Assembly (NCBI GenBank): GCA_947179485.1
Contig: OX359245.1
Span: forward strand, 22,617,067 to 22,681,066
Length of the DNA stretch: 64,000 nucleotides
Source: Allacma fusca
Lineage: Eukaryota > Arthropoda > Collembola > Symphypleona > Sminthuridae
Direction: 5' to 3'
Under the pieces are notes generated by a model, which saw only the letters and a list, made by a program, of their open reading frames with translations, did no database searches and was not told the origin of the DNA. Below, piece by piece: positions 798-25,930 of the stretch (its first letter is position 1; each line of letters begins with the position of its first letter). Position numbers and translations under genes: made by a program.

Positions 798-1090
798 TTA
801 GAAGACTTCCTGAGTGTATTTTCATAGTTTGAAGAGATTCGGGCGAGTTTGGCTAATACGTTAAACAGCTACCATCGCAACGAGACCTCATTTTCATCGC
901 TATTTTTAAAGTTTTTCGATTCATCCTAAATTTGAGAATTGAGCTTTGGCAGACTGCCCGAGTTTATTCCCAAAGTTTAAAGAGATTCGGACGAGTTAAG
1001 CAAACAACTTAAAAAATGACCTGAGCGACACGTCATTTTCATTGCTTTTTTCAAATATTTTCGATTCATCTCAGATTCGAGAATTAAACT

Positions 1091-6096: not shown

Positions 6097-9000
6097 TTGG
6101 CAGACTGCCCGAGTGTATCCCCAAAGTTTAATGAGATTCGGACGAGTTCGGCAAACCCCTTAAAAAGTGACCATAGCAACGAGACCTCATTTTCTTTGCT
6201 ATGCTTAAAGTTTTTCGATTCAACCCCAATTCGAGAGTTGAGCTTTGGCAGACCGCCCAAGTGTATTACCAAAATTTAAAGAGATTCAGGCGAGCTCAGC
6301 AAACACGTTAAACAGTGACCATATCAACGAGACCTCATTTTCATCGCTATGTTTAATGTTTTTCGATTCAACCCCAATTCGAGATTTGTGCTTTGGCAGA
6401 CTTCCTGAGTGTATTCCCAAAGTTTAAGGAGATTCGGACGAGCTCAAAAAACACGTTAAACAGTGATCATAGCAACGAAACCTATTTTCATCGCTTTGCT
6501 TAGTTTTTCGATTCTTTCAAAATTCGAGAATTGAGCTTTGGCAGCCTGCCCGAGTGTATCCCCAAAGTTTAAGGAGATTAGGACGAGTTCGGCAAATCCC
6601 TTAAAAAGTGACCATAGCAACGAGACCTCATTTTCTTTGCTATGCTTAAAGTTTTTCGAATCATCCCAAATCCAAGGATTGAGTTTTAGAAGACTTCCTG
6701 AGTGTATTTTCATAGTTTGAAGAGATTCGGGCGAGTTTGGCTAACACGTTAAACAGCTACCATCGCAACGAGACCTCATTTTCATCGCTATTTTTAAAGT
6801 TTTTCGATTCATCCTAAATTTGAGAATTGAGCTTTGGCAGACTGCCCGAGTTTATTCCCAAAGTTTAAAGAGATTCGGACGAGTTAAGCAAACAACAAAA
6901 AGTGACCATAGCAACGAGACCTCATTTTCTTTGCTATGCTTAAAGTTTTTCGAATCATCCCAAATCCAAGGATTGAGTTTTAGAAGACTTCCTGAGTGTA
7001 TTTTCATAGTTTGAAGAGATTCGGGCGAGTTTGGCTAACACGTGAAACAGCTACCATCGCAACGAGACCTCATTTTCATCGCTATTTTTAAAGTTTTTCG
7101 ATTCATCCTAAATTTGAGAATTGAGCTTTGGCAGACTGCCCGAGTTTATTCCCAAAGTTTAAAGAGATTCGGACGAGTTAAGCAAACAACTTAAAAAATG
7201 ACCTGAGCGACACGTCATTTTCATTGCTTTTTTCAAATATTTTCGATTCATCTCAGATTCGAGAATTAAACTTTGGCAGACTGCCCGAGTGTATCCCCAA
7301 AGTTTAATGAGATTCGGACGAGTTCGGCAAACCCCTTAAAAAGTGACCATAGCAACGAGACCTCATTTTCTTTGCTATGCTTAAAGTTTTTCGATTCAAC
7401 CCCAATTCGAGAGTTGAGCTTTGGCAGACCGCCCAAGTGTATTACCAAAATTTAAAGAGATTCAGGCGAGCTCAGCAAACACGTTAAACAGTGACCATAT
7501 CAACGAGACCTCATTTTCATCGCTATGTTTAAAGTTTTTCGATTCAACCCCAATTCGAGATTTGTGCTTTGGCAGACTTCCTGAGTGTATTCCCAAAGTT
7601 TAAGGAGATTCGGACGAGCTCAAAAAACACGTTAAACAGTGATCATAGCAACGAAACCTATTTTCATCGCTTTGTTTAGTTTTTCGATTCTTTCAAAATT
7701 CGAGAATTGAGCTTTGGCAGCCTGCCCGAGTGTATCCCCAAAGTTTAAGGAGATTAGGACGAGTTCGGCAAATCCCTTAAAAAGTGACCATAGCAACGAG
7801 ACCTCATTTTCTTTGCTATGCTTAAAGTTTTTCGAATCATCCCAAATCCAAGGATTGAGTTTTAGAAGACTTCCTGAGTGTATTTTCATAGTTTGAAGAG
7901 ATTCGGGCGAGTTTGGCTAACACGTTAAACAGCTACCATCGCAACGAGACCTCATTTTCATCGCTATTTTTAAAGTTTTTCGATTCATCCTAAATTTGAG
8001 AATTGAGCTTTGGCAGACTGCCCGAGTTTATTCCCAAAGTTTAAAGAGATTCGGACGAGTTAAGCAAACAACTTAAAAAGTGACCATAGCAACGAGACCT
8101 CATTTTCTTTGCTATGCTTAAAGTTTTTCGAATCATCCCAAATCCAAGGATTGAGTTTTAGAAGACTTCCTGAGTGTATTTTCATAGTTTGAAGAGATTC
8201 GGGCGAGTTTGGCTAATACGTTAAACAGCTACCATCGCAACGAGACCTCATTTTCATCGCTATTTTTAAAGTTTTTCGATTCATCCTAAATTTGAGAATT
8301 GAGCTTTGGCAGACTGCCCGAGTTTATTCCCAAAGTTTAAAGAGATTCGGACGAGTTAAGCAAACAACTTAAAAAGTGACCATAGCAACGAGACCTCATT
8401 TTCTTTGCTATGCTTAAAGTTTTTCGAATCATCCCAAATCCAAGGATTGAGTTTTAGAAGACTTCCTGAGTGTATTTTCATAGTTTGAAGAGATTCGGGC
8501 GAGTTTGGCTAACACGTGAAACAGCTACCATCGCAACGAGACCTCATTTTCATCGCTATTTTTAAAGTTTTTCGATTCATCCTAAATTTGAGAATTGAGC
8601 TTTGGCAGACTGCCCGAGTTTATTCCCAAAGTTTAAAGAGATTCGGACGAGTTAAGCAAACAACTTAAAAAATGACCTGAGCGACACGTCATTTTCATTG
8701 CTTTTTTCAAATATTTTCGATTCATCTCAGATTCGAGAATTAAACTTTGGCAGACTGCCCGAGTGTATCCCCAAAGTTTAATGAGATTCGGACGAGTTCG
8801 GCAAACCCCTTAAAAAGTGACCATAGCAACGAGACCTCATTTTCTTTGCTATGCTTAAAGTTTTTCGATTCAACCCCAATTCGAGAGTTGAGCTTTGGCA
8901 GACCGCCCAAGTGTATTACCAAAATTTAAAGAGATTCAGGCGAGCTCAGCAAACACGTTAAACAGTGACCATATCAACGAGACCTCATTTTCATCGCTAT

Positions 9001-9924
9001 GTTTAAAGTTTTTCGATTCAACCCCAATTCGAGATTTGTGCTTTGGCAGACTTCCTGAGTGTATTCCCAAAGTTTAAGGAGATTCGGACGAGCTCAAAAA
9101 ACACGTTAAACAGTGATCATAGCAACGAAATCTATTTTCATCGCTTTGCTTAGTTTTTCGATTCTTTCAAAATTCGAGAATTGAGCTTTGGCAGCCTGCC
9201 CGAGTGTATCCCCAAAGTTTAATGAGATTCGGACGAGTTCGGCAAATCCCTTAAAAAGTGACCATAGCAACGAGACCTCATTTTCTTTGCTATGCTTAAA
9301 GTTTTTCGAATCATCCCAAATCCAAGGATTGAGTTTTAGAAGACTTCCTGAGTGTATTTTCATAGTTTGAAGAGATTCGGGCGAGTTTGGCTAACACGTT
9401 AAACAGCTACCATCGCAACGAGACCTCATTTTCATCGCTATTTTTAAAGTTTTTCGATTCATCCTAAATTTGAGAATTGAGCTTTGGCAGACTGCCCGAG
9501 TTTATTCCCAAAGTTTAAAGAGATTCGGACGAGTTAAGCAAACAACTTAAAAAGTGACCATAGCAACGAGACCTCATTTTCTTTGCTATGCTTAAAGTTT
9601 TTCGAATCATCCCAAATCCAAGGATTGAGTTTTAGAAGACTTCCTGAGTGTATTTTCATAGTTTGAAGAGATTCGGGCGAGTTTGGCTAACACGTGAAAC
9701 AGCTACCATCGCAACGAGACCTCATTTTCATCGCTATTTTTAAAGTTTTTCGATTCATCCTAAATTTGAGAATTGAGCTTTGGCAGACTGCCCGAGTTTA
9801 TTCCCAAAGTTTAAAGAGATTCGGACGAGTTAAGCAAACAACTTAAAAAATGACCTGAGCGACACGTCATTTTCATTGCTTTTTTCAAATATTTTCGATT
9901 CATCTCAGATTCGAGAATTAAACT
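6097..9924. repeat. 3,828-bp 26-monomer block, second copy
   Basis: This repeats the 2269-6096 block in direct tandem with the same 1,176, 1,474 and 1,178 bp sub-units and the same diagnostic variants. The one private change I noticed is at 6357 (gtttaatgtt instead of gtttaaagtt). The near-identity over 3.8 kb indicates a very recent tandem duplication of a multi-HOR segment rather than independent amplification of single monomers. Confidence 0.88.
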
Positions 9925-11102
9925 TTGGCAGACTGCCCGAGTGTATCCCCAAAGTTTAATGAGATTCGGACGAGTTCGGCAAACCCCTTAAAAAGTGACC
10001 ATAGCAACGAGACCTCATTTTCTTTGCTATGCTTAAAGTTTTTCGATTCAACCCCAATTCGAGAGTTGAGCTTTGGCAGACCGCCCAAGTGTATTACCAA
10101 AATTTAAAGAGATTCAGGCGAGCTCAGCAAACACGTTAAACAGTGACCATATCAACGAGACCTCATTTTCATCGCTATGTTTAAAGTTTTTCGATTCAAC
10201 CCCAATTCGAGATTTGTGCTTTGGCAGACTTCCTGAGTGTATTCCCAAAGTTTAAGGAGATTCGGACGAGCTCAAAAAACACGTTAAACAGTGATCATAG
10301 CAACGAAACCTATTTTCATCGCTTTGCTTAGTTTTTCGATTCTTTCAAAATTCGAGAATTGAGCTTTGGCAGCCTGCCCGAGTGTATCCCCAAAGTTTAA
10401 GGAGATTAGGACGAGTTCGGCAAATCCCTTAAAAAGTGACCATAGCAACGAGACCTCATTTTCTTTGCTATGCTTAAAGTTTTTCGAATCATCCCAAATC
10501 CAAGGATTGAGTTTTAGAAGACTTCCTGAGTGTATTTTCATAGTTTGAAGAGATTCGGGCGAGTTTGGCTAACACGTTAAACAGCTACCATCGCAACGAG
10601 ACCTCATTTTCATCGCTATTTTTAAAGTTTTTCGATTCATCCTAAATTTGAGAATTGAGCTTTGGCAGACTGCCCGAGTTTATTCCCAAAGTTTAAAGAG
10701 ATTCGGACGAGTTAAGCAAACAACTTAAAAAGTGACCATAGCAACGAGACCTCATTTTCTTTGCTATGCTTAAAGTTTTTCGAATCATCCCAAATCCAAG
10801 GATTGAGTTTTAGAAGACTTCCTGAGTGTATTTTCATAGTTTGAAGAGATTCGGGCGAGTTTGGCTAACACGTTAAACAGCTACCATCGCAACGAGACCT
10901 CATTTTCATCGCTATTTTTAAAGTTTTTTGATTCATCCTAAATTTGAGAATTGAGCTTTGGCAGACTGCCCGAGTTTATTCCCAAAGTTTAAAGAGATTC
11001 GGACGAGTTAAGCAAACAACTTAAAAAATGACCTGAGCGACACGTCATTTTCATTGCTTTTTTCAAATATTTTCGATTCATCTCAGATTCGAGAATTAAA
11101 CT
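9925..11102. repeat. 8-monomer higher-order repeat (1,178 bp)
   Basis: The order is A-B-C-D-E-FD-E-F, directly following the second 3,828-bp block. It lacks the 2-bp FD deletion that marks the middle HORs of those blocks, so it marks where the 3,828-bp periodicity stops. A private change near 10927 gives gttttttgattc in one E monomer. Confidence 0.85.
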
Positions 11103-11250
11103 TTGGCAGACTGCCCGAGTGTATCCCCAAAGTTTAATGAGATTCGGACGAGTTCGGCAAACCCCTTAAAAAGTGACCATAGCAACGAGACCTCATTTTC
11201 TTTGCTATGCTTAAAGTTTTTCGAATCATCCCAAATCCAAGGATTGAGTT
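11103..11250. repeat. Chimeric monomer AD (exemplar)
   Basis: It starts as A (preceded by gaattaaac, with tttaatgagattcgg) and ends as D (cgaatcatcccaaatccaagg). A and D are almost identical over roughly 80 bp in between, so the crossover lies somewhere in that stretch. AD is always followed by E-F to make a 441-bp three-monomer unit, seen many times (for example 13319, 14650, 28598, 29039, 38029, 48493, 52029, 55557). Confidence 0.85.
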
Positions 11251-12428
11251 TTAGAAGACTTCCTGAGTGTATTTTCATAGTTTGAAGAGATTCGGGCGAG
11301 TTTGGCTAACACGTGAAACAGCTACCATCGCAACGAGACCTCATTTTCATCGCTATTTTTAAAGTTTTTCGATTCATCCTAAATTTGAGAATTGAGCTTT
11401 GGCAGACTGCCCGAGTTTATTCCCAAAGTTTAAAGAGATTCGGACGAGTTAAGCAAACAACTTAAAAAATGACCTGAGCGACACGTCATTTTCATTGCTT
11501 TTTTCAAATATTTTCGATTCATCTCAGATTCGAGAATTAAACTTTGGCAGACTGCCCGAGTGTATCCCCAAAGTTTAATGAGATTCGGACGAGTTCGGCA
11601 AACCCCTTAAAAAGTGACCATAGCAACGAGACCTCATTTTCTTTGCTATGCTTAAAGTTTTTCGATTCAACCCCAATTCGAGAGTTGAGCTTTGGCAGAC
11701 CGCCCAAGTGTATTACCAAAATTTAAAGAGATTCAGGCGAGCTCAGCAAACACGTTAAACAGTGACCATATCAACGAGACCTCATTTTCATCGCTATGTT
11801 TAAAGTTTTTCGATTCAACCCCAATTCGAGATTTGTGCTTTGGCAGACTTCCTGAGTGTATTACCAAAATTTAAAGAGATTCAGGCGAGCTCAGCAAACA
11901 CGTTAAACAGTGACCATATCAACGAGACCTCATTTTCATCGCTATGTTTAAAGTTTTTCGATTCAACCCCAATTCGAGATTTGTGCTTTGGCAGACTTCC
12001 TGAGTGTATTCCCAAAGTTTAAGGAGATTCGGACGAGCTCAAAAAACACGTTAAACAGTGATCATAGCAACGAAACCTATTTTCATCGCTTTGCTTAGTT
12101 TTTCGATTCTTTCAAAATTCGAGAATTGAGCTTTGGCAGCCTGCCCGAGTGTATCCCCAAAGTTTAAGGAGATTAGGACGAGTTCGGCAAATCCCTTAAA
12201 AAGTGACCATAGCAACGAGACCTCATTTTCTTTGCTATGCTTAAAGTTTTTCGAATCATCCCAAATCCAAGGATTGAGTTTTAGAAGACTTCCTGAGTGT
12301 ATTTTCATAGTTTGAAGAGATTCGGGCGAGTTTGGCTAACACGTTAAACAGCTACCATCGCAACGAGACCTCATTTTCATCGCTATTTTTAAAGTTTTTC
12401 GATTCATCCTAAATTTGAGAATTGAGCT

Positions 12429-12576
12429 TTGGCAGACTGCCCGAGTTTATTCCCAAAGTTTAAAGAGATTCGGACGAGTTAAGCAAACAACTTAAAAAGT
12501 GACCATAGCAACGAGACCTCATTTTCTTTGCTATGCTTAAAGTTTTTCGATTCAACCCCAATTCGAGAGTTGAGCT
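12429..12576. repeat. Chimeric monomer FA (exemplar)
   Basis: The 5' part has the F signature (gagtttattccc, gagttaagcaaac). The 3' part is A (tttgctatgcttaaag, then aaccccaattcgagagttg), so it leads directly into a B monomer at 12577. The switch lies in the shared stretch around cttaaaaagtgaccatag. Other FA copies are at about 17455, 33018 and 43037. Confidence 0.8.
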
Positions 12577-13017
12577 TTGGCAGACCGCCCAAGTGTATTA
12601 CCAAAATTTAAAGAGATTCAGGCGAGCTCAGCAAACACGTTAAACAGTGACCATATCAACGAGACCTCATTTTCATCGCTATGTTTAAAGTTTTTCGATT
12701 CAACCCCAATTCGAGATTTGTGCTTTGGCAGACTTCCTGAGTGTATTCCCAAAGTTTAAGGAGATTCGGACGAGCTCAAAAAACACGTTAAACAGTGATC
12801 ATAGCAACGAAACCTATTTTCATCGCTTTGCTTAGTTTTTCGATTCTTTCAAAATTCGAGAATTGAGCTTTGGCAGCCTGCCCGAGTGTATCCCCAAAGT
12901 TTAAGGAGATTAGGACGAGTTCGGCAAATCCCTTAAAAAGTGACCATAGCAACGAGACCTCATTTTCTTTGCTATGCTTAAAGTTTTTCGAATCATCCCA
13001 AATCCAAGGATTGAGTT

Positions 13018-13173
13018 TTAGAAGACTTCCTGAGTGTATTTTCATAGTTTGAAGAGATTCGGGCGAGTTTGGCTAACACGTACGTTTGGCTAACAGCTAC
13101 CATCGCAACGAGACCTCATTTTCATCGCTATTTTTAAAGTTTTTCGATTCATCCTAAATTTGAGAATTGAGCT
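13018..13173. repeat. E' monomer with 8-bp internal insertion (exemplar)
   Basis: Where E reads cacgttaaacagc, E' reads cacgtacgtttggctaacagc, giving 156 instead of 148 bp. The extra bases repeat the neighbouring gtttggctaac, so this looks like a short tandem duplication or slippage event. Ten E' copies are visible, starting at about 13018, 14349, 15680, 18044, 31980, 33607, 42440, 43626, 48192 and 51728. In each, the following F monomer carries ctatggcag instead of ctttggcag, so the two variants are inherited as one haplotype. Confidence 0.85.
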
Positions 13174-16100
13174 ATGGCAGACTGCCCGAGTTTATTCCCA
13201 AAGTTTAAAGAGATTCGGACGAGTTAAGCAAACAACTTAAAAAATGACCTGAGCGACACGTCATTTTCATTGCTTTTTTCAAATATTTTCGATTCATCTC
13301 AGATTCGAGAATTAAACTTTGGCAGACTGCCCGAGTGTATCCCCAAAGTTTAATGAGATTCGGACGAGTTCGGCAAACCCCTTAAAAAGTGACCATAGCA
13401 ACGAGACCTCATTTTCTCTGCTATGCTTAAAGTTTTTCGAATCATCCCAAATCCAAGGATTGAGTTTTAGAAGACTTCCTGAGTGTATTTTCATAGTTTG
13501 AAGAGATTCGGGCGAGTTTGGCTAACACGTGAAACAGCTACCATCGCAACGAGACCTCATTTTCATCGCTATTTTTAAAGTTTTTCGATTCATCCTAAAT
13601 TTGAGAATTGAGCTTTGGCAGACTGCCCGAGTTTATTCCCAAAGTTTAAAGAGATTCGGACGAGTTAAGCAAACAACTTAAAAAATGACCTGAGCGACAC
13701 GTCATTTTCATTGCTTTTTTCAAATATTTTCGATTCATCTCAGATTCGAGAATTAAACTTTGGCAGACTGCCCGAGTGTATCCCCAAAGTTTAATGAGAT
13801 TCGGACGAGTTCGGCAAACCCCTTAAAAAGTGACCATAGCAACGAGACCTCATTTTCTTTGCTATGCTTAAAGTTTTTCGATTCAACCCCAATTCGAGAG
13901 TTGAGCTTTGGCAGACCGCCCAAGTGTATTACCAAAATTTAAAGAGATTCAGGCGAGCTCAGCAAACACGTTAAACAGTGACCATATCAACGAGACCTCA
14001 TTTTCATCGCTATGTTTAAAGTTTTTCGATTCAACCCCAATTCGAGATTTGTGCTTTGGCAGACTTCCTGAGTGTATTCCCAAAGTTTAAGGAGATTCGG
14101 ACGAGCTCAAAAAACACGTTAAACAGTGATCATAGCAACGAAACCTATTTTCATCGCTTTGCTTAGTTTTTCGATTCTTTCAAAATTCGAGAATTGAGCT
14201 TTGGCAGCCTGCCCGAGTGTATCCCCAAAGTTTAAGGAGATTAGGACGAGTTCGGCAAATCCCTTAAAAAGTGACCATAGCAACGAGACCTCATTTTCTT
14301 TGCTATGCTTAAAGTTTTTCGAATCATCCCAAATCCAAGGATTGAGTTTTAGAAGACTTCCTGAGTGTATTTTCATAGTTTGAAGAGATTCGGGCGAGTT
14401 TGGCTAACACGTACGTTTGGCTAACAGCTACCATCGCAACGAGACCTCATTTTCATCGCTATTTTTAAAGTTTTTCGATTCATCCTAAATTTGAGAATTG
14501 AGCTATGGCAGACTGCCCGAGTTTATTCCCAAAGTTTAAAGAGATTCGGACGAGTTAAGCAAACAACTTAAAAAATGACCTGAGCGACACGTCATTTTCA
14601 TTGCTTTTTTCAAATATTTTCGATTCATCTCAGATTCGAGAATTAAACTTTGGCAGACTGCCCGAGTGTATCCCCAAAGTTTAATGAGATTCGGACGAGT
14701 TCGGCAAACCCCTTAAAAAGTGACCATAGCAACGAGACCTCATTTTCTTTGCTATGCTTAAAGTTTTTCGAATCATCCCAAATCCAAGGATTGAGTTTTA
14801 GAAGACTTCCTGAGTGTATTTTCATAGTTTGAAGAGATTCGGGCGAGTTTGGCTAACACGTTAAACAGCTACCATCGCAACGAGACCTCATTTTCATCGC
14901 TATTTTTAAAGTTTTTCGATTCATCCTAAATTTGAGAATTGAGCTTTGGCAGACTGCCCGAGTTTATTCCCAAAGTTTAAAGAGATTCGGACGAGTTAAG
15001 CAAACAACTTAAAAAATGACCTGAGCGACACGTCATTTTCATTGCTTTTTTCAAATATTTTCGATTCATCTCAGATTCGAGAATTAAACTTTGGCAGACT
15101 GCCCGAGTGTATCCCCAAAGTTTAATGAGATTCGGACGAGTTCGGCAAACCCCTTAAAAAGTGACCATAGCAACGAGACCTCATTTTCTTTGCTATGCTT
15201 AAAGTTTTTCGATTCAACCCCAATTCGAGAGTTGAGCTTTGGCAGACCGCCCAAGTGTATTACCAAAATTTAAAGAGATTCAGGCGAGCTCAGCAAACAC
15301 GTTAAACAGTGACCATATCAACGAGACCTCATTTTCATCGCTATGTTTAAAGTTTTTCGATTCAACCCCAATTCGAGATTTGTGCTTTGGCAGACTTCCT
15401 GAGTGTATTCCCAAAGTTTAAGGAGATTCGGACGAGCTCAAAAAACACGTTAAACAGTGATCATAGCAACGAAACCTATTTTCATCGCTTTGCTTAGTTT
15501 TTCGATTCTTTCAAAATTCGAGAATTGAGCTTTGGCAGCCTGCCCGAGTGTATCCCCAAAGTTTAAGGAGATTAGGACGAGTTCGGCAAATCCCTTAAAA
15601 AGTGACCATAGCAACGAGACCTCATTTTCTTTGCTATGCTTAAAGTTTTTCGAATCATCCCAAATCCAAGGATTGAGTTTTAGAAGACTTCCTGAGTGTA
15701 TTTTCATAGTTTGAAGAGATTCGGGCGAGTTTGGCTAACACGTACGTTTGGCTAACAGCTACCATCGCAACGAGACCTCATTTTCATCGCTATTTTTAAA
15801 GTTTTTCGATTCATCCTAAATTTGAGAATTGAGCTATGGCAGACTGCCCGAGTTTATTCCCAAAGTTTAAAGAGATTCGGACGAGTTAAGCAAACAACTT
15901 AAAAAATGACCTGAGCGACACGTCATTTTCATTGCTTTTTTCAAATATTTTCGATTCATCTCAGATTCGAGAATTAAACTTTGGCAGACTGCCCGAGTGT
16001 ATCCCCAAAGTTTAATGAGATTCGGACGAGTTCGGCAAACCCCTTAAAAAGTGACCATAGCAACGAGACCTCATTTTCTTTGCTATGCTTAAAGTTTTTC

Positions 16101-18615
16101 GAATCATCCCAAATCCAAGGATTGAGTTTTAGAAGACTTCCTGAGTGTATTTTCATAGTTTGAAGAGATTCGGGCGAGTTTGGCTAACACGTTAAACAGC
16201 TACCATCGCAACGAGACCTCATTTTCATCGCTATTTTTAAAGTTTTTCGATTCATCCTAAATTTGAGAATTGAGCTTTGGCAGACTGCCCGAGTTTATTC
16301 CCAAAGTTTAAAGAGATTCGGACGAGTTAAGCAAACAACTTAAAAAGTGACCATAGCAACGAGACCTCATTTTCTTTGCTATGCTTAAAGTTTTTCGAAT
16401 CATCCCAAATCCAAGGATTGAGTTTTAGAAGACTTCCTGAGTGTATTTTCATAGTTTGAAGAGATTCGGGCGAGTTTGGCTAACACGTTAAACAGCTACC
16501 ATCGCAACGAGACCTCATTTTCATCGCTATTTTTAAAGTTTTTCGATTCATCCTAAATTTGAGAATTGAGCTTTGGCAGACTGCCCGAGTTTATTCCCAA
16601 AGTTTAAAGAGATTCGGACGAGTTAAGCAAACAACTTAAAAAATGACCTGAGCGACACGTCATTTTCATTGCTTTTTTCAAATATTTTCGATTCATCTCA
16701 GATTCGAGAATTAAACTTTGGCAGACTGCCCGAGTGTATCCCCAAAGTTTAATGAGATTCGGACGAGTTCGGCAAACCCCTTAAAAAGTGACCATAGCAA
16801 CGAGACCTCATTTTCTTTGCTATGCTTAAAGTTTTTCGATTCAACCCCAATTCGAGAGTTGAGCTTTGGCAGACCGCCCAAGTGTATTACCAAAATTTAA
16901 AGAGATTCAGGCGAGCTCAGCAAACACGTTAAACAGTGACCATATCAACGAGACCTCATTTTCATCGCTATGTTTAAAGTTTTTCGATTCAACCCCAATT
17001 CGAGATTTGTGCTTTGGCAGACTTCCTGAGTGTATTCCCAAAGTTTAAGGAGATTCGGACGAGCTCAAAAAACACGTTAAACAGTGATCATAGCAACGAA
17101 ACCTATTTTCATCGCTTTGCTTAGTTTTTCGATTCTTTCAAAATTCGAGAATTGAGCTTTGGCAGCCTGCCCGAGTGTATCCCCAAAGTTTAAGGAGATT
17201 AGGACGAGTTCGGCAAATCCCTTAAAAAGTGACCATAGCAACGAGACCTCATTTTCTTTGCAATGCTTAAAGTTTTTCGAATCATCCCAAATCCAAGGAT
17301 TGAGTTTTAGAAGACTTCCTGAGTGTATTTTCATAGTTTGAAGAGATTCGGGCGAGTTTGGCTAACACGTTAAACAGCTACCATCGCAACGAGACCTCAT
17401 TTTCATCGCTATTTTTAAAGTTTTTCGATTCATCCTAAATTTGAGAATTGAGCTTTGGCAGACTGCCCGAGTTTATTCCCAAAGTTTAAAGAGATTCGGA
17501 CGAGTTAAGCAAACAACTTAAAAAGTGACCATAGCAACGAGACCTCATTTTCTTTGCTATGCTTAAAGTTTTTCGATTCAACCCCAATTCGAGAGTTGAG
17601 CTTTGGCAGACCGCCCAAGTGTATTACCAAAATTTAAAGAGATTCAGGCGAGCTCAGCAAACACGTTAAACAGTGACCATATCAACGAGACCTCATTTTC
17701 ATTGCTATGTTTAAAGTTTTTCGATTCAACCCCAATTCGAGATTTGTGCTTTGGCAGACTTCCTGAGTGTATTCCCAAAGTTTAAGGAGATTCGGACGAG
17801 CTCAAAAAACACGTTAAACAGTGATCATAGCAACGAAACCTATTTTCATCGCTTTGCTTAGTTTTTCGATTCTTTCAAAATTCGAGAATTGAGCTTTGGC
17901 AGCCTGCCCGAGTGTATCCCCAAAGTTTAAGGAGATTAGGACGAGTTCGGCAAATCCCTTAAAAAGTGACCATAGCAACGAGACCTCATTTTCTTTGCTA
18001 TGCTTAAAGTTTTTCGAATCATCCCAAATCCAAGGATTGAGTTTTAGAAGACTTCCTGAGTGTATTTTCATAGTTTGAAGAGATTCGGGCGAGTTTGGCT
18101 AACACGTACGTTTGGCTAACAGCTACCATCGCAACGAGACCTCATTTTCATCGCTATTTTTAAAGTTTTTCGATTCATCCTAAATTTGAGAATTGAGCTA
18201 TGGCAGACTGCCCGAGTTTATTCCCAAAGTTTAAAGAGATTCGGACGAGTTAAGCAAACAACTTAAAAAATGACCTGAGCGACACGTCATTTTCATTGCT
18301 TTTTTCAAATATTTTCGATTCATCTCAGATTCGAGAATTAAACTTTGGCAGACTGCCCGAGTGTATCCCCAAAGTTTAATGAGATTCGGACGAGTTCGGC
18401 AAACCCCTTAAAAAGTGACCATAGCAACGAGACCTCATTTTCTTTGCTATGCTTAAAGTTTTTCGAATCATCCCAAATCCAAGGATTGTTTTAGAAGACT
18501 TCCTGAGTGTATTTTCATAGTTTGAAGAGATTCGGGCGAGTTTGGCTAACACGTTAAACAGCTACCATCGCAACGAGACCTCATTTTCATCGCTATTTTT
18601 AAAGTTTTTCGATTC

Positions 18616-18620
18616 ATCCT
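18616..18620. repeat. Target-site duplication, left copy (atcct)
   Basis: The five bases atcct precede the 5' LTR and recur at 25926-25930 straight after the 3' LTR. Removing the element and one copy restores the normal E monomer sequence gattcatcctaaatttgag. A 5-bp duplication is usual for Ty1/copia integrases. Confidence 0.95.
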
Positions 18621-18710
18621 TGTGATGACATATTAATTATGATCATGTCTTGTACTCGTATTTATGCTATTACACATTTATTGGAATCATGTATGAATGA
18701 GTTTACATGT

Positions 18711-18886
18711 ATGTCATACCGTCTATTGCATGAGTACTGTATGTCATACCCCCTATTGTATGTGTATTGTATGTCATACCCCCTATTGTATGTGGAGTGT
18801 ATGCCATACCCCCTATTGTATGTGTACTGTATGTCATACCCCCTATTGTATGTGTACTGTATGCCATACCCCCTATTTACACGTGT
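18711..18886 (+). repeat. 30-bp tandem repeats in U3 of the 5' LTR
   Basis: Nearly six units of 30 bp start at 18711, 18741, 18771, 18801, 18831 and 18861 (the last partial). The unit core is atg(t/c)cataccccctattgta. At each junction it forms GTATG(T/C)CATAC, a short palindrome with a one-base centre. The position upstream of the TATA box suggests enhancer or transcription-factor sites. The open frames translating this cluster (rich in Cys/Tyr/Pro on one strand and Tyr/Asn/Arg/Gly on the other) are artefacts of the repeat. The same cluster is at 25408-25583 in the 3' LTR. Confidence 0.9.
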
Positions 18887-18906
18887 CATGTAATGCTTGT
18901 ATGGCC

Positions 18907-18923
18907 CCAGTACTGTGTACTGG
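18907..18923. promoter_or_regulatory. Inverted repeat in U3
   Basis: CCAGTAC and GTACTGG form 7-bp arms around a TGT centre. The site is downstream of the 30-bp repeats and could be a dimeric protein site or small hairpin. Its function is unknown. The second copy is at 25604-25620. Confidence 0.45.
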
Positions 18924-19074
18924 AATACCCTTTCTAAAAACCAAAGGTATGACTAAGCCTAGTTCCTGGAATTAGGGCTTAGCCTTTTTATATGCCATGA
19001 GTCATAGCTGGCAATCCCAAATACTGTACTGGACCTGACCGTCCCTTTCACTTTTGTTACTCGGCCTTTTGCCA

Positions 19075-19080
19075 TATAAG
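19075..19080 (+). promoter_or_regulatory. Putative TATA box of the LTR promoter
   Basis: TATAAG lies within gccatataagcaaagg, about 150 bp before the end of the LTR and upstream of the AATAAA, as expected for a U3/R junction promoter. Transcription would begin roughly 25-35 bp downstream, near 19100-19115. I see no clear initiator element, so the start is uncertain. Confidence 0.6.
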
Positions 19081-19152
19081 CAAAGGCCCTTTCTCTTTCC
19101 ATACACTTGAATTTTGTCTCTTGAGGAGGTTACTCTGCCCAATTCACTCCTG

Positions 19153-19158
19153 AATAAA
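19153..19158 (+). terminator. Poly(A) signal in the 5' LTR (AATAAA)
   Basis: AATAAA is in tgaataaacttt, followed about 30 bp later by a GT-rich stretch (tgttcttgtta). In the 5' LTR it must be bypassed; the equivalent copy at 25850-25855 would be used to end the transcript. The R region would run from the unknown start near 19105 to a cleavage site near 19175-19190. Confidence 0.7.
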
Positions 19159-19228
19159 CTTTTACTACGGTTTATAACTTTATTGAAATCTGTTCTTGTT
19201 ACGAACCATTTCTTGATTATTCATCACA

Positions 19229-19241
19229 TGGTAGCTAGAGC
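19229..19241 (+). other. Primer-binding site resembling initiator Met-tRNA
   Basis: TGGTAGC immediately follows the LTR and is complementary to the 3' end (GCTACCA) of eukaryotic initiator methionine tRNA, the usual primer for copia elements. The next bases TAGAGC match the tRNA complement (AGAG...) only if one extra T is allowed. The primer assignment is good for the first seven bases and inferential beyond. Confidence 0.65.
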
Positions 19242-19419
19242 GTTAGGTATTTTCTACGGAATTTAAATTGTGGATACTGGAATTTAGTTTACAAATTCAG
19301 TTCAATTTGAAGTTAGAATATTCTACGCAAGTTTTGATCAGTTCTAGTGAAGTTTCAGTTGGTTTTGAGAGTATTTTGATTAAATAAATTCAATTTGTGT
19401 CAAATTTTACCCGAGCAAA
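19229..19419 (+). other. 5' leader of the retrotransposon
   Basis: These 191 AT-rich bases lie between the LTR and the start codon. They hold the primer-binding site and presumably dimerisation or packaging signals and any splice donor, none of which I can identify. The start codon context is gagcaaaATG, with A at -3. Confidence 0.75.
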
Positions 19420-20340
19420 ATGTCTAAAGTCAAGTCTGACGTCATCGTGAAGTTGAACGGATCAAACTTCAACCGGTGGAAGTTCCAGGTTACCTTGCTG
19501 CTGAAGACCCACGACCTATGGGAAATAGTACTAGGAGTTGCAGACAGACCAGACGATGATGAAGGGATCAAGGCCTGGATCAAGAAGGATTTGGAAGCTC
19601 AAAACATCATCTCCTCAACGGTGGATGACGTCCAATTCAATCACATTTACACGTGTGAGTCATCCTACGAGATGTTCGAGAAGCTGAAGGAGGCAAACTC
19701 AGACTGCAGCTCACTGAATATCCAGCATACGTTGACCAAATTCATGACGTACACCATTGGGAAGGATGAGTCACCGGTTGCTGCCATGATGGAGATTGAG
19801 AAGTTGGCCCACGCACTCGCGGAAATGGGGATGGGACAACCGGAGCAGACGGTAATTACCAAAATTGTATCATCTCTCCCCAGGAAATATTCAACTTTAA
19901 GGACAGCCTGGAATATCATCCCACTGAAGCACCAAACCCTGGTTGCTTTGAAGGCCCTGCTAAAGAAGGAGGAATTTCAGATGCAGGCGGATGAGTCACA
20001 AGTCCAGGAGGAAGAGGCAACGGCTGCAAAGGCGTTCCGGTTCAACGTTAAAGGGGAGAAGAAAGACTCCAAGGAACTGCCCAAGAAGGACGATGGAAGA
20101 CCTGCCAAACCCAAGGGGAAGTGTTTCAACTGTGGAAAAGCAGGACACTTCAAGAGGGATTGCAGATCCAAGCCTAAGGAGCAGTCCAGGGACGATGAAA
20201 GAAGCGGGAACGGCCGGGCATTTGGGTTCAATGCAGCAAGCACATCCAGAGCACCGACAAATGGACAAGGAAGGAGAGGGAACTCCAAGGATACAACAGT
20301 GGTTAGAGCATTCACAGGAAGATCCGATGACTCATCAGCT
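19420..20340 (+). other. Gag region with CCHC zinc knuckle
   Basis: Residues 1-307. The N-terminus carries the LNGSNFNRWK motif typical of copia-type Gag (Retrotran_gag_2/UBN2 families), followed by a mostly helical capsid-like region. The knuckle CX2CX4HX4C is at residues 235-248 (nt 20122-20163) in a basic Lys/Arg-rich context suited to RNA binding. There is no stop or slippery site between Gag and protease, so the Gag:Pol ratio cannot be set by frameshifting as in Ty1. Drosophila copia makes extra Gag by splicing, and a similar route is possible. Confidence 0.9.
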
Positions 20341-23300
20341 GGTGACTGGATCAGTGACTCAGGCGCTACAAACCATGTATGTGGGAACAAGGACTGGTTT
20401 TCATCCTACACGCCTTTCCCAGAGGACGAGACGAGGAAAATCATCCTTGCTGACAACGCGAGCATCCAAGCTATAGGACAAGGCGTTGTAACTCTGGAGG
20501 CATTCCTAGGCAACAAATGGGAGGAAATTAGGATAGAAGACGTGTTCTACATCCCTGGAGCTGCTAACCTGTTCTCGGAAGGACTTGTGGCCCGTAAGAC
20601 TGGATACAACATCCTGAGGTCAGCGGAAAAGGCTGTGTACTACCGCAAGGACAAGCTTCCAGGACCAGTGGCGTATGTCAAAAACAACGTCTACGTGATG
20701 AAGTTCCGGCCCATCTGCATGGAAATCCGCGCCAACGTAATCAAGTTTCTTCCCAAGGATCAAACGGCTAAACTTTGGCACGACAGGATGACTCACATCA
20801 ACCCACGCTACGTCAAGGAGACGGCACGCAAAGGAGCTGTCAAGGGATTGGACTCCGTGGACGTGAGAGGGGACTTCCATTGTGAAGACTGCATCATGGG
20901 AAAACAGGCCCGAAAACCTTTTCCAAGGGTCACTACAGTGGACAACTTCAAACCAGCCGAGAAGCTCTACGCTGATTTAGCGGGAAAGATGCCGGTTCCA
21001 TCACTTGGAGGGGCAAACTACTACCTCCTGATCAAGGATCATGCTACGGGATTCCGGTTTGCATACTTCCTGAATACGAAGGATGAGACCACGGCATGTG
21101 TCAAGGACTGCGTAGCCTACCTGGAGAACCAGACCGGGACTACAGTAAAGAAGTTCATGACTGACAACGGTACGGAATTCGTAAATAAAAACTTGAAAAC
21201 TTTTTTCCGGGAGAACGGCATCCATCATGAGACGTCGGCTCCATATTGCCCCGAGAGCAACGGGAAAATCGAGAGGGAGAATAGGACCATCAAGGACTGC
21301 GCCAGGACCATCCTCGTTGCAGCTGATCTCCCACAATTCCTATGGGCTGAGGCAGTGTCGACAACTGTTTATGTGCACAACCGTGTACTGGATAAGCAAA
21401 GTCCGGACATCACTGCCTTCGAAGCCATCTTTAAAAAGAAACCGTCCGTTGGCCATTTACGCGTGTTTGGATGCACGGCGTATGCACACATCCCGGATCC
21501 AAAGAGGAAGGCTTTTGACCCCAAAAGCACGAAAATGGTGCTAGTTGGATACTGTGGAGAGAGCAAGTACCGGCTCTACAACGAAGCAACCAACGAAATC
21601 CACGAATCCAGGAACGTCACCTTTTGCGAAGAAAAGGAGGAATACGTCGAACTGAAGAGGCCTGTTGCAGCCAACAAGCCAGCAGTTCCAACCCCGAGAA
21701 GGAAGATCATCCCTCAGCCCATTTACTCTTCATCAAGCGATGACAGCGATGGAAATGATGATGACAACTCATTCCATGACGCAAATGGCGCAGAACACCT
21801 GCCTGACGACGCTCCACTGTTCTCGGATGCAGAAACGACGGAATCGTCAGGAGACTCATCATCACCGCCTACTCCAGGAAGGTCGGACCCAGCCCCAACC
21901 ACATCAACTCCAGGGTCATCCAGGACTCGTCGAGTGATTGTCCATACGCCGGATGGAGACTTTGTGGCTGATGTTCCAGAAGGACAGGATGCCGAGCTAA
22001 CCATCCCAGGTCAGAAGAAATACAAAGGATGGTTCAAGCCAACTATAACGAAGTCTAGACTCAGGTCAGGAGCCAAGGATGCAGCCAAGGATGCTGCCAG
22101 CAACGCTCCAAAGAAGCTCTTTGCATCACGGATAGTAGATGAGCCAACCACTTACAAGCAAGCCTTGGCGTCTCCAAATAAACTGAATTGGATCCAAGCC
22201 ATGGCAGAGGAAGTTGCCAGCCAGGAAGCCAACCAGTCGTGGGAAGTTGTGCCAAAACCACCCCGTGTAAAGCTCCTGGACACTAAATGGGTATTCAAGG
22301 TCAAGACCAACCAGGATGGATCCATTCAGCGTTACAAGGCTCGCTTGGTCATCCGTGGATACCGACAGGAAGAAGGAGTGGATTACTTCGAGACGTTTGC
22401 AGCTGTAGCCCGCTACGAGTCAATCCGACTTCTCCTCAACATTGCGGCCTCGCAGAAACTCTTCATGGAGCAGTTTGATGTCAAAACTGCATTCCTGCAT
22501 GGAGACCTGGACGAGGAAATATACGTCAAGATACCCCAAGGATATGAAGTCGACGGGGATGACAAGGTCTTGCGGCTCCTAAAAAGCATCTACGGATTGA
22601 AGCAATCACCCCGATGCTGGAATAAGAAGCTATCGGATTGCCTAGCCGCCCTTGGACTCCAAGCTGCCCAACACGAGCCCAGCGTGTTTTTCGGGAAGAT
22701 CAGCGGCCAACTCGTAATTCTTGCTATATATGTGGATGATGGGCTCATCATGTCTGCCAACAAGGCCGTGCTGCATGGAGTTCTGGACGGAATTTCAAAA
22801 TCTTTTGAAATCACCCGTGGATCCCCAACAAGCTACGTGGGATTGGAAATTCACCAATCCGCATCTGGAAGCATCAGGATCACCCAGCGGAAGTACGTGG
22901 AGAAGATGCTGGAAAAATTCCACATGGATGATTCTCACCCTTGCAGCGTTCCCCTGCAGCCCTATACGGACTTGGTCCCTCCAAAGGAAATCAACGAGGA
23001 TCTTCCTTATAGGCAATTAATTGGCTCCCTTATCTTTTTAGCCAAGTGTTCGCGCCCGGACATTTCCTTTTCCGTATCCAGATTGGCCCAATTCATGAGC
23101 GGATACGACGAAACTCACTGGAAAGCTGCCAAAAACGTGCTGCGTTACCTCAAAGGAACACTGGACATGGGCATCACATACAGCACCGGGGGCAACATGA
23201 GACTCGTTGGATACACGGACTCGGATTACGCTGGAGACAAGCTCAGCAGGAAATCCACCACAGGGACAGCAATCTTCCTTAACGACGGGATCGTGTCTTG

Positions 23301-25260
23301 GACAAGCCAGAAGCAACCCTGTGTAGCCCTGTCATCAACGGAGGCTGAGTACATCGCTTTGGCATCCGGAGCAAGGGAAGCAGTCTGGCTAAGGTCTCTG
23401 TTGGACGAATTGGACTTCCCCCAGGACGAACCTACAAAAATCCTGGTGGACAACCAGAGTGCCATACGATTGGTGAAGAATCCCGAGATGCACTCCAGGA
23501 CGAAGCACATTGATGTGCGTTACCATTACATCAGGGAACTTGTAGAGGACGACCAAATCAGCGTGGACTACATCCCAACAACGGAGCAGCTTGCTGACGG
23601 CTTAACGAAGCCTCTGATGAAGGGAAAGCTGGAGGAGAATCGCACCGGACTAGGACTTACGCAAGTCACCCCAACCAGCAAGAGGACGCAGGGAAAGGGT
23701 CCATTCTCCCCTCTTCTAGCCGTGGCAATCCTTTCGGTGCTAACCGTATGCAGCGCAACCCCGGATCACCACACGCCGCCCGTATTATGGAGGAAAAGCG
23801 ACACCCCTATAACTACTGGGCATCACCAAATCAGCCTACAAGTGGATTTTGTCAACCCCTGTGACATTATAGGCAATTCATCATTTCACCACGATCTGAC
23901 GAAAGAGGCGCGGCTACGATGCCTACAGGCCTACGACAGCATCTTTGTAAAGGAACTTAAGATGATGTGCCCCCAAAACCGATGGACGCAAATTGGAAGT
24001 CGCCAGAAGCGTTTTGTGGACCTGTTAATCCTGCTTATTGTAATTTCAGTAGTTGCCAGCATCTCACTGGGAGTTGGAGGAACGGCAACCGCTGCTGTCA
24101 ATTCTGCTAAACTGGGATCTCTGGAAAATCGGGAAATTTTGGTGGGAGACATGCTGAACGATTTGGAGCGCCAAATCAAACGAAATCACGAGGACATTCG
24201 GAACCTGACGATCAAGTTCAACAGTGCAATGGGAAACTTGAGCATCTTACAAGCCGACCACGATGAGCTGAAGGGAAAGTCAATAGGAACAAACTTCGCC
24301 ATTTCCTACTTTATCAGCCGGTTCTTGATTGGAAAGACTGTGATCCAGGAGGCCAACAGGGAATGGAAGCAAGGACGAGTCAGCGGGGCATTCTTGGACT
24401 ATTTCAACCTGACGCTGCCGTGCGGGGACCAGTGCCCCATTCACCTCGCAAAACCCCAAAGATGTGGCATCTCCGAGGACGGAACCAAACTCTACATGGA
24501 GTTCTCCTCACCCGTAGTCAGCCAGGATCTTACCCTAGTTGAAGCGGACCCTTTTGACCTGATGGCGAGGAAAGGAGACAAGACGTGCATGATCAAGTAC
24601 ACAGGACCTAGGAACGCCATCCTTTCGGAAGTTAACCAATGCGTTTACTCCGTCAACGTGAAGCATCCGATCAAGCACGATCTCATCCTGGCCCCATCCA
24701 GAGGATGCATGCCCAGGACGAAGAGCTCCAACGAAACCAAGCACTTCAGCATCGATCATTGCGAGAAGCGCCAACCGTTGGATGAGCTCAACTTTATCCA
24801 AATCAAGCCCTACAATGGTCAATACCATATCTACTGCCCAGAATCCAACCTAACCGTTGAAGGAGTAGAAAACCGATGTCCAAACGACGTGGTCATCTTC
24901 CCAATGAGGACGAACTTCACCATCAACGACTTGGAGTTCTCTGGATCCCGGATCAGCATATCCCATCAGGAGACCTTGGACCCAGTCTTTACTGTGAAGA
25001 CAAATTGGCATCTCCAACCAATGGTCAACTGGACCTCACTTATGAAGGAAATCAACGCAACGGACGATTTCCATGAAGTCAGCATTGCAGACTTCCATTA
25101 CATTAACAACTATTGGTCAACCATAGGATGCGTGTCAATTATTTTCCTGATGGCCATTGTACTCATCTGCATGCTGAAAAGACGAAACAATGAACCATTG
25201 AGAGTCTCTGTACTAGCTACACCTATTTCTGATAATATACAAATGCGTGCTATTAATTAA
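19420..25260 (+). CDS. Gag-Pol-Env-like polyprotein of a Ty1/copia retrotransposon
   Basis: A single 1,946-residue frame opens with ATG in a favourable context and ends with TAA at 25258-25260, with no frameshift or internal stop. Domains in order: copia-type Gag (1-230); zinc knuckle (C235, C238, H243, C248); protease with DSGA (D313); HHCC zinc domain (H454, H459, C488, C491); integrase core (D519, D582, E618; D-35-E spacing); acidic Ser/Asp-rich linker (about 770-835); reverse transcriptase (905-1150, D1020 and YVDD 1104-1107); RNase H (1255-1400; D1267, E1310, D1344, D1393); then an envelope-like region (about 1404-1946). Residues 1-1405 match the size of a normal copia Gag-Pol (Drosophila copia is about 1,409 residues), so the last 540 are an addition. 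All catalytic residues expected for the family are present. The products would assemble particles, copy the RNA and integrate the cDNA. How the envelope part is made separately is unknown. Confidence 0.96.
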   Translation: MSKVKSDVIVKLNGSNFNRWKFQVTLLLKTHDLWEIVLGVADRPDDDEGIKAWIKKDLEAQNIISSTVDDVQFNHIYTCESSYEMFEKLKEANSDCSSLNIQHTLTKFMTYTIGKDESPVAAMMEIEKLAHALAEMGMGQPEQTVITKIVSSLPRKYSTLRTAWNIIPLKHQTLVALKALLKKEEFQMQADESQVQEEEATAAKAFRFNVKGEKKDSKELPKKDDGRPAKPKGKCFNCGKAGHFKRDCRSKPKEQSRDDERSGNGRAFGFNAASTSRAPTNGQGRRGNSKDTTVVRAFTGRSDDSSAGDWISDSGATNHVCGNKDWFSSYTPFPEDETRKIILADNASIQAIGQGVVTLEAFLGNKWEEIRIEDVFYIPGAANLFSEGLVARKTGYNILRSAEKAVYYRKDKLPGPVAYVKNNVYVMKFRPICMEIRANVIKFLPKDQTAKLWHDRMTHINPRYVKETARKGAVKGLDSVDVRGDFHCEDCIMGKQARKPFPRVTTVDNFKPAEKLYADLAGKMPVPSLGGANYYLLIKDHATGFRFAYFLNTKDETTACVKDCVAYLENQTGTTVKKFMTDNGTEFVNKNLKTFFRENGIHHETSAPYCPESNGKIERENRTIKDCARTILVAADLPQFLWAEAVSTTVYVHNRVLDKQSPDITAFEAIFKKKPSVGHLRVFGCTAYAHIPDPKRKAFDPKSTKMVLVGYCGESKYRLYNEATNEIHESRNVTFCEEKEEYVELKRPVAANKPAVPTPRRKIIPQPIYSSSSDDSDGNDDDNSFHDANGAEHLPDDAPLFSDAETTESSGDSSSPPTPGRSDPAPTTSTPGSSRTRRVIVHTPDGDFVADVPEGQDAELTIPGQKKYKGWFKPTITKSRLRSGAKDAAKDAASNAPKKLFASRIVDEPTTYKQALASPNKLNWIQAMAEEVASQEANQSWEVVPKPPRVKLLDTKWVFKVKTNQDGSIQRYKARLVIRGYRQEEGVDYFETFAAVARYESIRLLLNIAASQKLFMEQFDVKTAFLHGDLDEEIYVKIPQGYEVDGDDKVLRLLKSIYGLKQSPRCWNKKLSDCLAALGLQAAQHEPSVFFGKISGQLVILAIYVDDGLIMSANKAVLHGVLDGISKSFEITRGSPTSYVGLEIHQSASGSIRITQRKYVEKMLEKFHMDDSHPCSVPLQPYTDLVPPKEINEDLPYRQLIGSLIFLAKCSRPDISFSVSRLAQFMSGYDETHWKAAKNVLRYLKGTLDMGITYSTGGNMRLVGYTDSDYAGDKLSRKSTTGTAIFLNDGIVSWTSQKQPCVALSSTEAEYIALASGAREAVWLRSLLDELDFPQDEPTKILVDNQSAIRLVKNPEMHSRTKHIDVRYHYIRELVEDDQISVDYIPTTEQLADGLTKPLMKGKLEENRTGLGLTQVTPTSKRTQGKGPFSPLLAVAILSVLTVCSATPDHHTPPVLWRKSDTPITTGHHQISLQVDFVNPCDIIGNSSFHHDLTKEARLRCLQAYDSIFVKELKMMCPQNRWTQIGSRQKRFVDLLILLIVISVVASISLGVGGTATAAVNSAKLGSLENREILVGDMLNDLERQIKRNHEDIRNLTIKFNSAMGNLSILQADHDELKGKSIGTNFAISYFISRFLIGKTVIQEANREWKQGRVSGAFLDYFNLTLPCGDQCPIHLAKPQRCGISEDGTKLYMEFSSPVVSQDLTLVEADPFDLMARKGDKTCMIKYTGPRNAILSEVNQCVYSVNVKHPIKHDLILAPSRGCMPRTKSSNETKHFSIDHCEKRQPLDELNFIQIKPYNGQYHIYCPESNLTVEGVENRCPNDVVIFPMRTNFTINDLEFSGSRISISHQETLDPVFTVKTNWHLQPMVNWTSLMKEINATDDFHEVSIADFHYINNYWSTIGCVSIIFLMAIVLICMLKRRNNEPLRVSVLATPISDNIQMRAIN
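20341..20700 (+). other. Aspartic protease domain
   Basis: Residues about 308-427. The active-site motif is WISDSGATNHVC with catalytic D313, the classic copia form D-S-G-A. A downstream hydrophobic GAANLFSEGLVARK segment matches the usual C-terminal part of copia proteases. It would act as a dimer to cut the polyprotein. Domain edges are approximate. Confidence 0.88.
20752..21690 (+). other. Integrase: HHCC zinc domain and DDE core
   Basis: The pre-integrase zinc domain has H454, H459, C488 and C491. The core has D519 (LYADLAG), D582 (MTDNGTEF) and E618 (SNGKIERENR), with exactly 35 residues between the last two. A C-terminal segment with VGYCGESKYRLY corresponds to the copia GKGY-like region. 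All catalytic residues are intact. The enzyme makes staggered 5-bp cuts, in agreement with the flanking 5-bp duplication. Confidence 0.92.
22132..22870 (+). other. Reverse transcriptase domain (RVT_2 type)
   Basis: Residues about 905-1150. It contains NWIQAMAEE, TKWVFKVK, YKARLVIRGYRQ, the FDVKTAFLHGDL motif with D1020, IYGLKQSPR and the YVDD box at 1104-1107. These are hallmarks of Ty1/copia RT. No substitution at catalytic positions is visible. Confidence 0.95.
23182..23620 (+). other. RNase H domain
   Basis: Residues about 1255-1400. Motifs: GYTDSDYAGD (D1267), SSTEAEYIAL (E1310), LVDNQSAI (D1344), HIDVRYHYIRE, and LADGLTKPL (D1393) at the end. Drosophila copia ends soon after this point, so the position marks the junction with the extra C-terminal module. 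Confidence 0.92.
23629..25257 (+). other. Envelope-like fusion glycoprotein module
   Basis: Residues about 1404-1946. Seen in order: hydrophobic signal-like segment 1431-1446; a short segment with three cysteines; a furin-type RQKR site at 1528-1531; a 30-residue hydrophobic Gly/Ala-rich stretch 1532-1561 placed like a fusion peptide; heptad-rich helix about 1565-1618; a cysteine-rich region starting with a CX3C pair (C1668, C1672); a membrane anchor about 1902-1919; and a 27-residue tail beginning with Lys-Arg-Arg. Nine N-X-S/T sequons lie outside the membrane segments. This is the layout of class I fusion proteins. The small part before the cleavage site (about 85 residues) and large part after it resemble F-type proteins (baculovirus F, errantivirus Env) more than retroviral SU/TM, but I do not recognise the family. 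Export to the cell surface is inferred. Confidence 0.72.
23701..23719 (+). promoter_or_regulatory. Candidate 3' splice site before the envelope-like module
   Basis: A pyrimidine-rich run (ttctcccctcttctag) ends in AG at 23718-23719, directly before the codons for the hydrophobic signal-like segment. A splice here could produce a subgenomic envelope message with its start codon donated from upstream. I found no convincing matching donor with the right phase, so this is speculative. Confidence 0.3.
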
Positions 25261-25308: not shown

Positions 25309-25317
25309 GAGGGAAAG
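25309..25317 (+). other. Polypurine tract
   Basis: GAGGGAAAG lies immediately before the 3' LTR. This is the standard position for the plus-strand DNA primer left by RNase H. Confidence 0.85.
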
Positions 25318-25407
25318 TGTGATGACATATTAATTATGATCATGTCTTGTACTCGTATTTATGCTATTACACATTTATTGGAATCATGTATGAATGAGTT
25401 TACATGT

Positions 25408-25583
25408 ATGTCATACCGTCTATTGCATGAGTACTGTATGTCATACCCCCTATTGTATGTGTATTGTATGTCATACCCCCTATTGTATGTGGAGTGTATG
25501 CCATACCCCCTATTGTATGTGTACTGTATGTCATACCCCCTATTGTATGTGTACTGTATGCCATACCCCCTATTTACACGTGT
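25408..25583 (+). repeat. 30-bp tandem repeats in U3 of the 3' LTR
   Basis: Exact counterpart of the 18711-18886 cluster, with the same order of unit variants. After reverse transcription this copy would supply U3 for both LTRs. Confidence 0.9.
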
Positions 25584-25849
25584 CATGTAATGCTTGTATG
25601 GCCCCAGTACTGTGTACTGGAATACCCTTTCTAAAAACCAAAGGTATGACTAAGCCCAGTTCCTGGAATTAGGGCTTAGCCTTTTTATATGCCATGAGTC
25701 ATAGCTGGCAATCCCAAATACTGTACTGGACCTGACCGTCCCTTTCACTTTTGTTACTCGGCCTTTTGCCATATAAGCAAAGGCCCTTTCTCTTTCCATA
25801 CACTTGAATTTTGTCTCTTGAGGAGGTTACTCTGCCCAATTCACTCCTG

Positions 25850-25855
25850 AATAAA
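25850..25855 (+). terminator. Poly(A) signal in the 3' LTR (AATAAA)
   Basis: Counterpart of 19153-19158 and the one expected to be used for the element's transcript. A GT-rich stretch follows about 30 bp later. Confidence 0.75.
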
Positions 25856-25925
25856 CTTTTACTACGGTTTATAACTTTATTGAAATCTGTTCTTGTTACG
25901 AACCATTTCTTGATTATTCATCACA

Positions 25926-25930
25926 ATCCT
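25926..25930 (+). repeat. Target-site duplication, right copy (atcct)
   Basis: Matches 18616-18620. The satellite resumes in phase as the rest of the interrupted E monomer. Confidence 0.95.

Follow-up and report, generated by a model that had tools for sequence, protein, structure and literature searches.

Ty1/copia retroelements (Pseudoviridae) are described as lacking an extracellular phase, and the family profile of the International Committee on Taxonomy of Viruses (ICTV) names a putative envelope protein (Env) for Sirevirus only (PMC8515867). The first-pass annotation of the DNA analysed here states that copia envelopes are known chiefly from plant sireviruses. A table in the same profile adds that pseudovirus virions might be enveloped (PMC8515867). 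Capture of an Env has repeatedly made other families of long terminal repeat (LTR) elements retrovirus-like (e.g. PMC12440569). Here we analyse a 64,000-nt window (the whole stretch studied, from contig OX359245.1 of the springtail Allacma fusca), which is a 148-bp satellite array from end to end with an LTR element as its sole interruption. This element is a young Ty1/copia-type jumping gene, and its Gag-Pol frame runs on into an Env-like tail. Very probably, a springtail Ty1/copia lineage once gained a viral F-type class I fusion gene, in frame at the end of Pol, and has held it under purifying selection since. Among the open-access papers listed by our literature searches, none describes an envelope in a copia element of an animal; most subscription papers lay outside the scope of that search, so no claim of priority is made.

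The fused frame and its Env-like tail

A single open frame of 1946 codons (19420–25260; all features are on the plus strand except the target-site duplications, which are unstranded) passes without a stop from Gag through RNase H into the tail, just as the first-pass annotation had read it. Pfam domains follow in copia order: the Gag capsid region (Retrotran_gag_2, 19495–19992, E 1e-20), a CCHC zinc knuckle (zf-CCHC, 20116–20166, E 1.3e-6), Pol_BBD (20347–20592, E 2.3e-19), near the start of which stands a DSGA that we take to be the protease motif, the GAG-pre-integrase domain (gag_pre-integrs, 20689–20907, E 2.1e-12), the integrase core (rve, 20953–21252, E 1.1e-10), an integrase SH3-like domain (SH3_retrovirus, 21430–21639, E 2.8e-28) and a copia-type reverse transcriptase (RT; RVT_2, 22231–22959, E 4.6e-67). 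The RNase H region is matched weakly (23233–23568, E 0.11), with the copia motif ADGLTKP just downstream. Both the RVT_2 type of RT and the position of integrase upstream of it are hallmarks of Ty1/copia.

From ADGLTKP to a conserved VLWRK in the Env-like part the window has 56 residues, signal included, and no stop. The tail opens with an internal signal-like segment (23698–23766), recognised by its hydrophobicity. Some 70 residues, three of them conserved cysteines, separate this stretch from a furin-type site, RQKR (24001–24012), which was identified from the sequence and a 22-row Env alignment; its KR is invariant in all 22 aligned rows, and a database row outside that set, P0009, has ER. 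Immediately after it comes a fusion-peptide-like segment (24013–24102; hydrophobicity and predicted structure), followed by a long helix resembling heptad repeat A (24151–24369; heptads and predicted structure), a beta-rich ectodomain core (24451–24939; predicted structure and fold comparison), a membrane anchor helix (25111–25188; hydrophobicity and predicted structure) and, in the predicted structure, a short cytoplasmic tail (25189–25257). The tail thus has three hydrophobic segments (signal, post-cleavage and anchor), and the order F2, furin site, fusion peptide, heptad helix, beta core, anchor is that of F-type proteins. Every part that the first-pass annotation had listed, from signal-like segment and furin-type site to heptads, nine sequons and anchor, was recovered. 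The LTRs, the target-site duplication, the satellite around the element and the further copies, all described below, go beyond that annotation.

The window's tail contains 15 cysteines; 12 cysteines are conserved in at least 20 of the 21–22 aligned rows, and nine conserved ones are spread over 24421–24879. It has nine sequons where shuffled sequences average 4.1 (p 0.012); of 29 rows, six show an excess at the p 0.05 level. Hydrophobicity at heptad positions a and d after the fusion segment is 0.76 vs 0.54 in shuffled sequence (p 0.001, window); across Env-bearing proteins the same test was significant in six of the 12 that were scored and not in the other six, and two others could not be scored. 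Residues 421–473, where a second heptad region would lie before the anchor, have a predicted local distance difference test (pLDDT) score below 50.

The LTRs, each 608 bp, lie at 18621–19228 (5'; TGTGATGA...TCATCACA) and 25318–25925 (3') and pair with one mismatch. They have TG..CA ends and are bounded by a 5-bp target-site duplication, ATCCT (18616–18620 and 25926–25930), as is typical of Ty1/copia, and the intact order LTR, gag, pol, env is that of an endogenous retrovirus-like element. Both LTRs contain a 30-bp tandem repeat of 5.7 copies (18708–18877 and 25405–25574). A candidate polypurine tract, GAGGGAAAG, precedes the 3' LTR (25309–25317), and the stretch directly after the 5' LTR (19229–19247) starts with TGGTAGC, which we take to agree with the end of the initiator methionine tRNA (tRNA-iMet) over seven bases only. 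The surrounding satellite (1–18615 and 25931–64000) repeats every 148 bp, and three such units (148+148+145) make up a higher-order repeat of 441 bp; no second interruption was seen in it.

Phylogeny, selection and spread

In an IQ-TREE phylogeny of 52 rows spanning RT and RNase H (RT-RH), the 11 Env-bearing domains form one clade (support 100/100). A second tree of 59 rows, rooted on five plant copia elements, likewise unites 24/24 Env-bearing rows (99/99), including five genome domains just 42–44% identical to that of the window. This tree combined 46 of 123 domain rows with 13 genome loci; rows with RT coverage below 55% (among Env-bearing ones P0087, P0013, P0015, P0009 and P0018) were excluded together with surplus Env-less rows, and Env-less status was judged from the protein of each row, not from flanking DNA. 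The clade sits among Env-less copia elements of ants, a beetle, a pseudoscorpion and others. The RT phylogeny that the first-pass annotation had proposed as a check thus puts the element inside animal copia; placement outside copia finds no support in the Pfam domains or in the 59-row tree; both trees held copia rows only and no gypsy or BEL. Across eight elements, Env identity is correlated with RT identity (r 0.57, p 0.005). The simplest reading is one Env gain followed by long common descent.

Nei–Gojobori ratios of nonsynonymous to synonymous divergence (dN/dS) are 0.11–0.23 for 15 pairs within a first family and 0.05–0.09 for six pairs within a second, over stretches that include the short linker; pairs inside one family are not independent. 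Four further pairs gave 0.09–0.16; they come from a set of 210, of which one pair was identical, these four had dS above 0 and below 1.6, and the remaining 205 were set aside because of saturation. The tail is therefore kept as a protein in the replicating lineages.

With the tail as query, a protein search returned 10 proteins and a profile search 16; a search with RT-RH returned 6953 copia proteins, of which the best 120 were examined. The tail profile matches 28 of the 140 database proteins compared. Six of these 28 are organism-named and all six are springtail proteins (four from Allacma fusca, one each from Folsomia candida and Orchesella dallaii), which places the fusion in three springtail genera. 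Two of the four Allacma proteins match pieces of the genome that contains the window, at 100% over 111 residues and 99.6% over 471; the other two, P0023 and P0087, match the compared pieces at only 52% and 31%. This Allacma genome (392,743,791 bases, 91 contigs, the window on C1) holds at least 84 matches to the tail (E no higher than 1e-3), with identities from 100 down to 30%; 32 of the 84 lie within stop-free frames of at least 1900 codons, and 16 full-length rows, among them that of the window, have 98–100% identity to the window, a sign of recent multiplication. An RT search of the same genome gave at least 90 matches. The downstream DNA of 17 that had no listed tail was inspected, and a tail was found in 16 (in one intact frame in 11, broken in five); the remaining locus, L044, has no tail in its downstream DNA. 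In L038–L041 and related rows, Allacma families have longer frames (2146–2216 codons) and an Env about 30% identical to the window's. L029 and L030, near-identical copies on C1 separated by about 14 kb, have a common frame break in Env.

The idea of a private chimera or an assembly artefact has nothing in its favour beyond the location of the element in satellite, where assemblies can err, and this distribution refutes it: the same fusion recurs in many of the 84 genome matches and in three springtail genera, and we give the idea practically no weight. The module is therefore not confined to one copy, a point on which the first-pass annotation had made its proposal depend.

Ten young units of the window's family (the window's and nine more) were examined for their insertion sites, and both ends were located in nine. 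All nine lie in the same satellite, with flanks of 75–91% identity; the tenth (L058/L059) has no recognisable 3' end, and its flanks fall outside the comparison. Perfect 5-bp duplications flank seven of the nine, and all seven differ, so these are separate insertions and not products of satellite amplification. The two units without duplications have a 3' flank in common with another copy, which suggests recombination. Young copies (L046–L063) occur on several chromosomes in this same satellite, again with differing 5-bp duplications, and L062 and L063 (C8:51155441-51169502) form a tandem pair with an apparently common middle LTR and one duplication at the outer ends. A possible explanation is insertion preference for satellite DNA, or shelter there.

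Fold, source and expression of the tail

Pfam gives only one line up to E 1 for the window's tail, a chance match at E 0.11, so the profile check assigns it to no envelope or non-envelope family. A comparison of the predicted fold with viral models, with a second look using VIA-align, listed viral F proteins, with matches over the ectodomain and 6–13% identity in the 50 listed rows. On this modelled resemblance the tail looks like an F-type class I fusion glycoprotein, that is, a virus-type membrane-fusion protein; a comparison with class I fusion proteins was among the checks that the first-pass annotation had suggested. The first rank among viral models is held by Canya virus (unclassified) and the second by a lispivirus; lispiviruses stand at ranks 2, 5 and 14 by taxonomy and 12 and 15 by name, so that five of the top 15 are lispivirus- or arli-related.

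The Env could instead belong to the baculovirus F/errantivirus Env-F family, in which case its source would be an insect retrovirus of the gypsy type or a baculovirus, not an RNA virus. Baculovirus F proteins occupy fold ranks 6, 7 and 13 among the viral models, the gaps in E-value between the lispivirus, baculovirus F and paramyxovirus F groups are small, and the tail agrees with that family in its furin site, its anchor and the succession of F2 and F1; errantivirus Env is of the F type (PMC12992720). Pfam Baculo_F, however, gives no line at E 0.01 in any of 22 family members, and the two leading ranks are not baculoviral; we consider this origin rather unlikely. Isolated weak Pfam lines to TLV_coat (one of 22 members, E 0.0061) and GP41 (one of eight, E 0.15) were taken as chance. 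A profile search of the PDB returned coiled coils and F proteins at E 0.01–2.2, with nothing significant outside the coil. Identification of the donor by sequence therefore failed; a pattern scan of viral contigs gave 22 stretches, none of them a relative, and a search of phage records gave none.

The absence of a consistent Pfam family also leaves room for a membrane protein of host or chance origin that does not act in fusion and is retained for another role, such as particle docking or exclusion, since an F-type function is predicted from sequence and structural modelling. We regard this as improbable: KR stands right before the hydrophobic segment in 22/22 aligned rows, F-protein folds match across the ectodomain, and no tail copy was seen joined to another gene kind, the upstream parts of P0010, P0014 and P0016 being short or decayed and unreadable as copia. 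Together with the single RT clade and the other copies, the viral F fold supports the proposal of an envelope-like glycoprotein in an animal copia element and an endogenous-retrovirus-like lineage.

A model of expression, processing, budding and infectivity is proposed in which genomic RNA would be translated into one polyprotein whose Gag-Pol portion would remain cytosolic and build copia-type particles. The signal, about 30 residues past the RNase H end motif, would send the C-terminal part to the endoplasmic reticulum, with the signal recognition particle engaging the buried signal and signal peptidase releasing the C-terminal part. Basic residues precede the hydrophobic stretch, consistent with Pol lying on the cytosolic side. 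Furin cleavage at RQKR would then yield a small F2 and a larger F1 comprising fusion peptide, long helix, disulphide-rich beta core and anchor, and membrane-wrapped particles with F trimers could enter other cells, for example the germ line from the soma, like enveloped errantiviruses. We know of no reverse-transcribing virus in which Env is the C-terminal end of a single Gag-Pol-Env chain, delivered via a buried signal.

Translation from Pol into Env is argued by the open junctions in the genome families. The junction scan covered 46 rows, of which 27 have both motifs (the other 19, some frame-broken, were not counted), and in 27/27 the RNase H end and the tail start share one frame with no stop, 51–82 residues apart with the signal included; for genome rows a different RNase H motif served for this measurement. 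The 27 are the window, 13 genome rows from three further families and 13 database proteins, which are predicted open frames by construction and could not have shown a stop. Alternatively, a functional Env might be translated from a subgenomic RNA that arises by splicing, and its fusion in frame with Pol might be incidental. Splicing yields the transcript for Env in insect errantiviruses, from within gag in one of their subclades (PMC12992720), and some linkers have a Met near the signal (e.g. P0011, P0041). Against splicing, the junction is open and continues the pol frame in the window and the 13 genome rows, and 32/84 genome matches lie in the long frames noted above. In the window, a consensus-only scan gave one weak donor-like site in 19101–20000 and no convincing acceptor, the best acceptor-like site (23718) falls within the signal-coding stretch, and the single Met of the linker is some 27 codons 5' of the signal. 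We therefore judge the polyprotein to be favoured and the spliced RNA a minority possibility. A bolder reading, to which we give slightly less than an even chance, is that retroviruses arose in animals independently once more, from Ty1/copia: springtails would harbour many enveloped, probably infectious copia-derived lineages, with a fusogen from a lispivirus-like RNA virus of arthropods and a Gag-Pol-Env polyprotein with a buried signal.

Comparison with known systems

The springtail element shares with animal Ty1/copia (Pseudoviridae) the order Gag, protease, integrase, RT, RNase H, as well as RVT_2, the 5-bp target duplication and its RT placement, and differs in adding an F-type Env. That whole families of such elements have kept this protein under selection suggests that springtails host retrovirus-like agents derived from a retroelement branch believed to remain strictly intracellular. 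What a retroelement requires to become a virus can be tested directly in laboratory arthropods with this copia lineage, which is large, diverse, under selection and recently active and has an F-type fusogen; Folsomia candida is a standard test species. The single polyprotein also poses the question of how one chain could supply both cytosolic capsids and a secretory-pathway glycoprotein.

Paramyxovirus and pneumovirus F proteins and lispivirus glycoproteins resemble the tail in fold and order of parts, but share with it only the low identity given above and no significant sequence match outside the coil. The Anakin and Atlas elements belong to retroelement families other than copia, and their glycoproteins are of other kinds. 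Like the springtail lineage, both are LTR elements with a captured RNA-virus glycoprotein, a chuvirus envelope in Anakin (PMC12440569) and a phlebovirus-like one in Atlas virus (PMC9094657). Sirevirus is likewise copia with an extra gene after pol, but is plant-restricted and has a third open reading frame downstream (PMC8515867), whereas here the host is a springtail and the frame is one. Errantiviruses (gypsy/ZAM) are LTR retroelements with an F-type Env that has signal, furin site, fusion peptide and anchor, but they are Ty3/gypsy elements and express Env from spliced RNA (PMC12992720), whereas the springtail element is copia with Env fused to Pol. Drosophila copia is reported to form capsids that move between cells (PMC11835246), and Env-less elements of the MDG1 group employ a small fusogen-like protein (PMC11952523); an Env is thus one of several exits from the cell.
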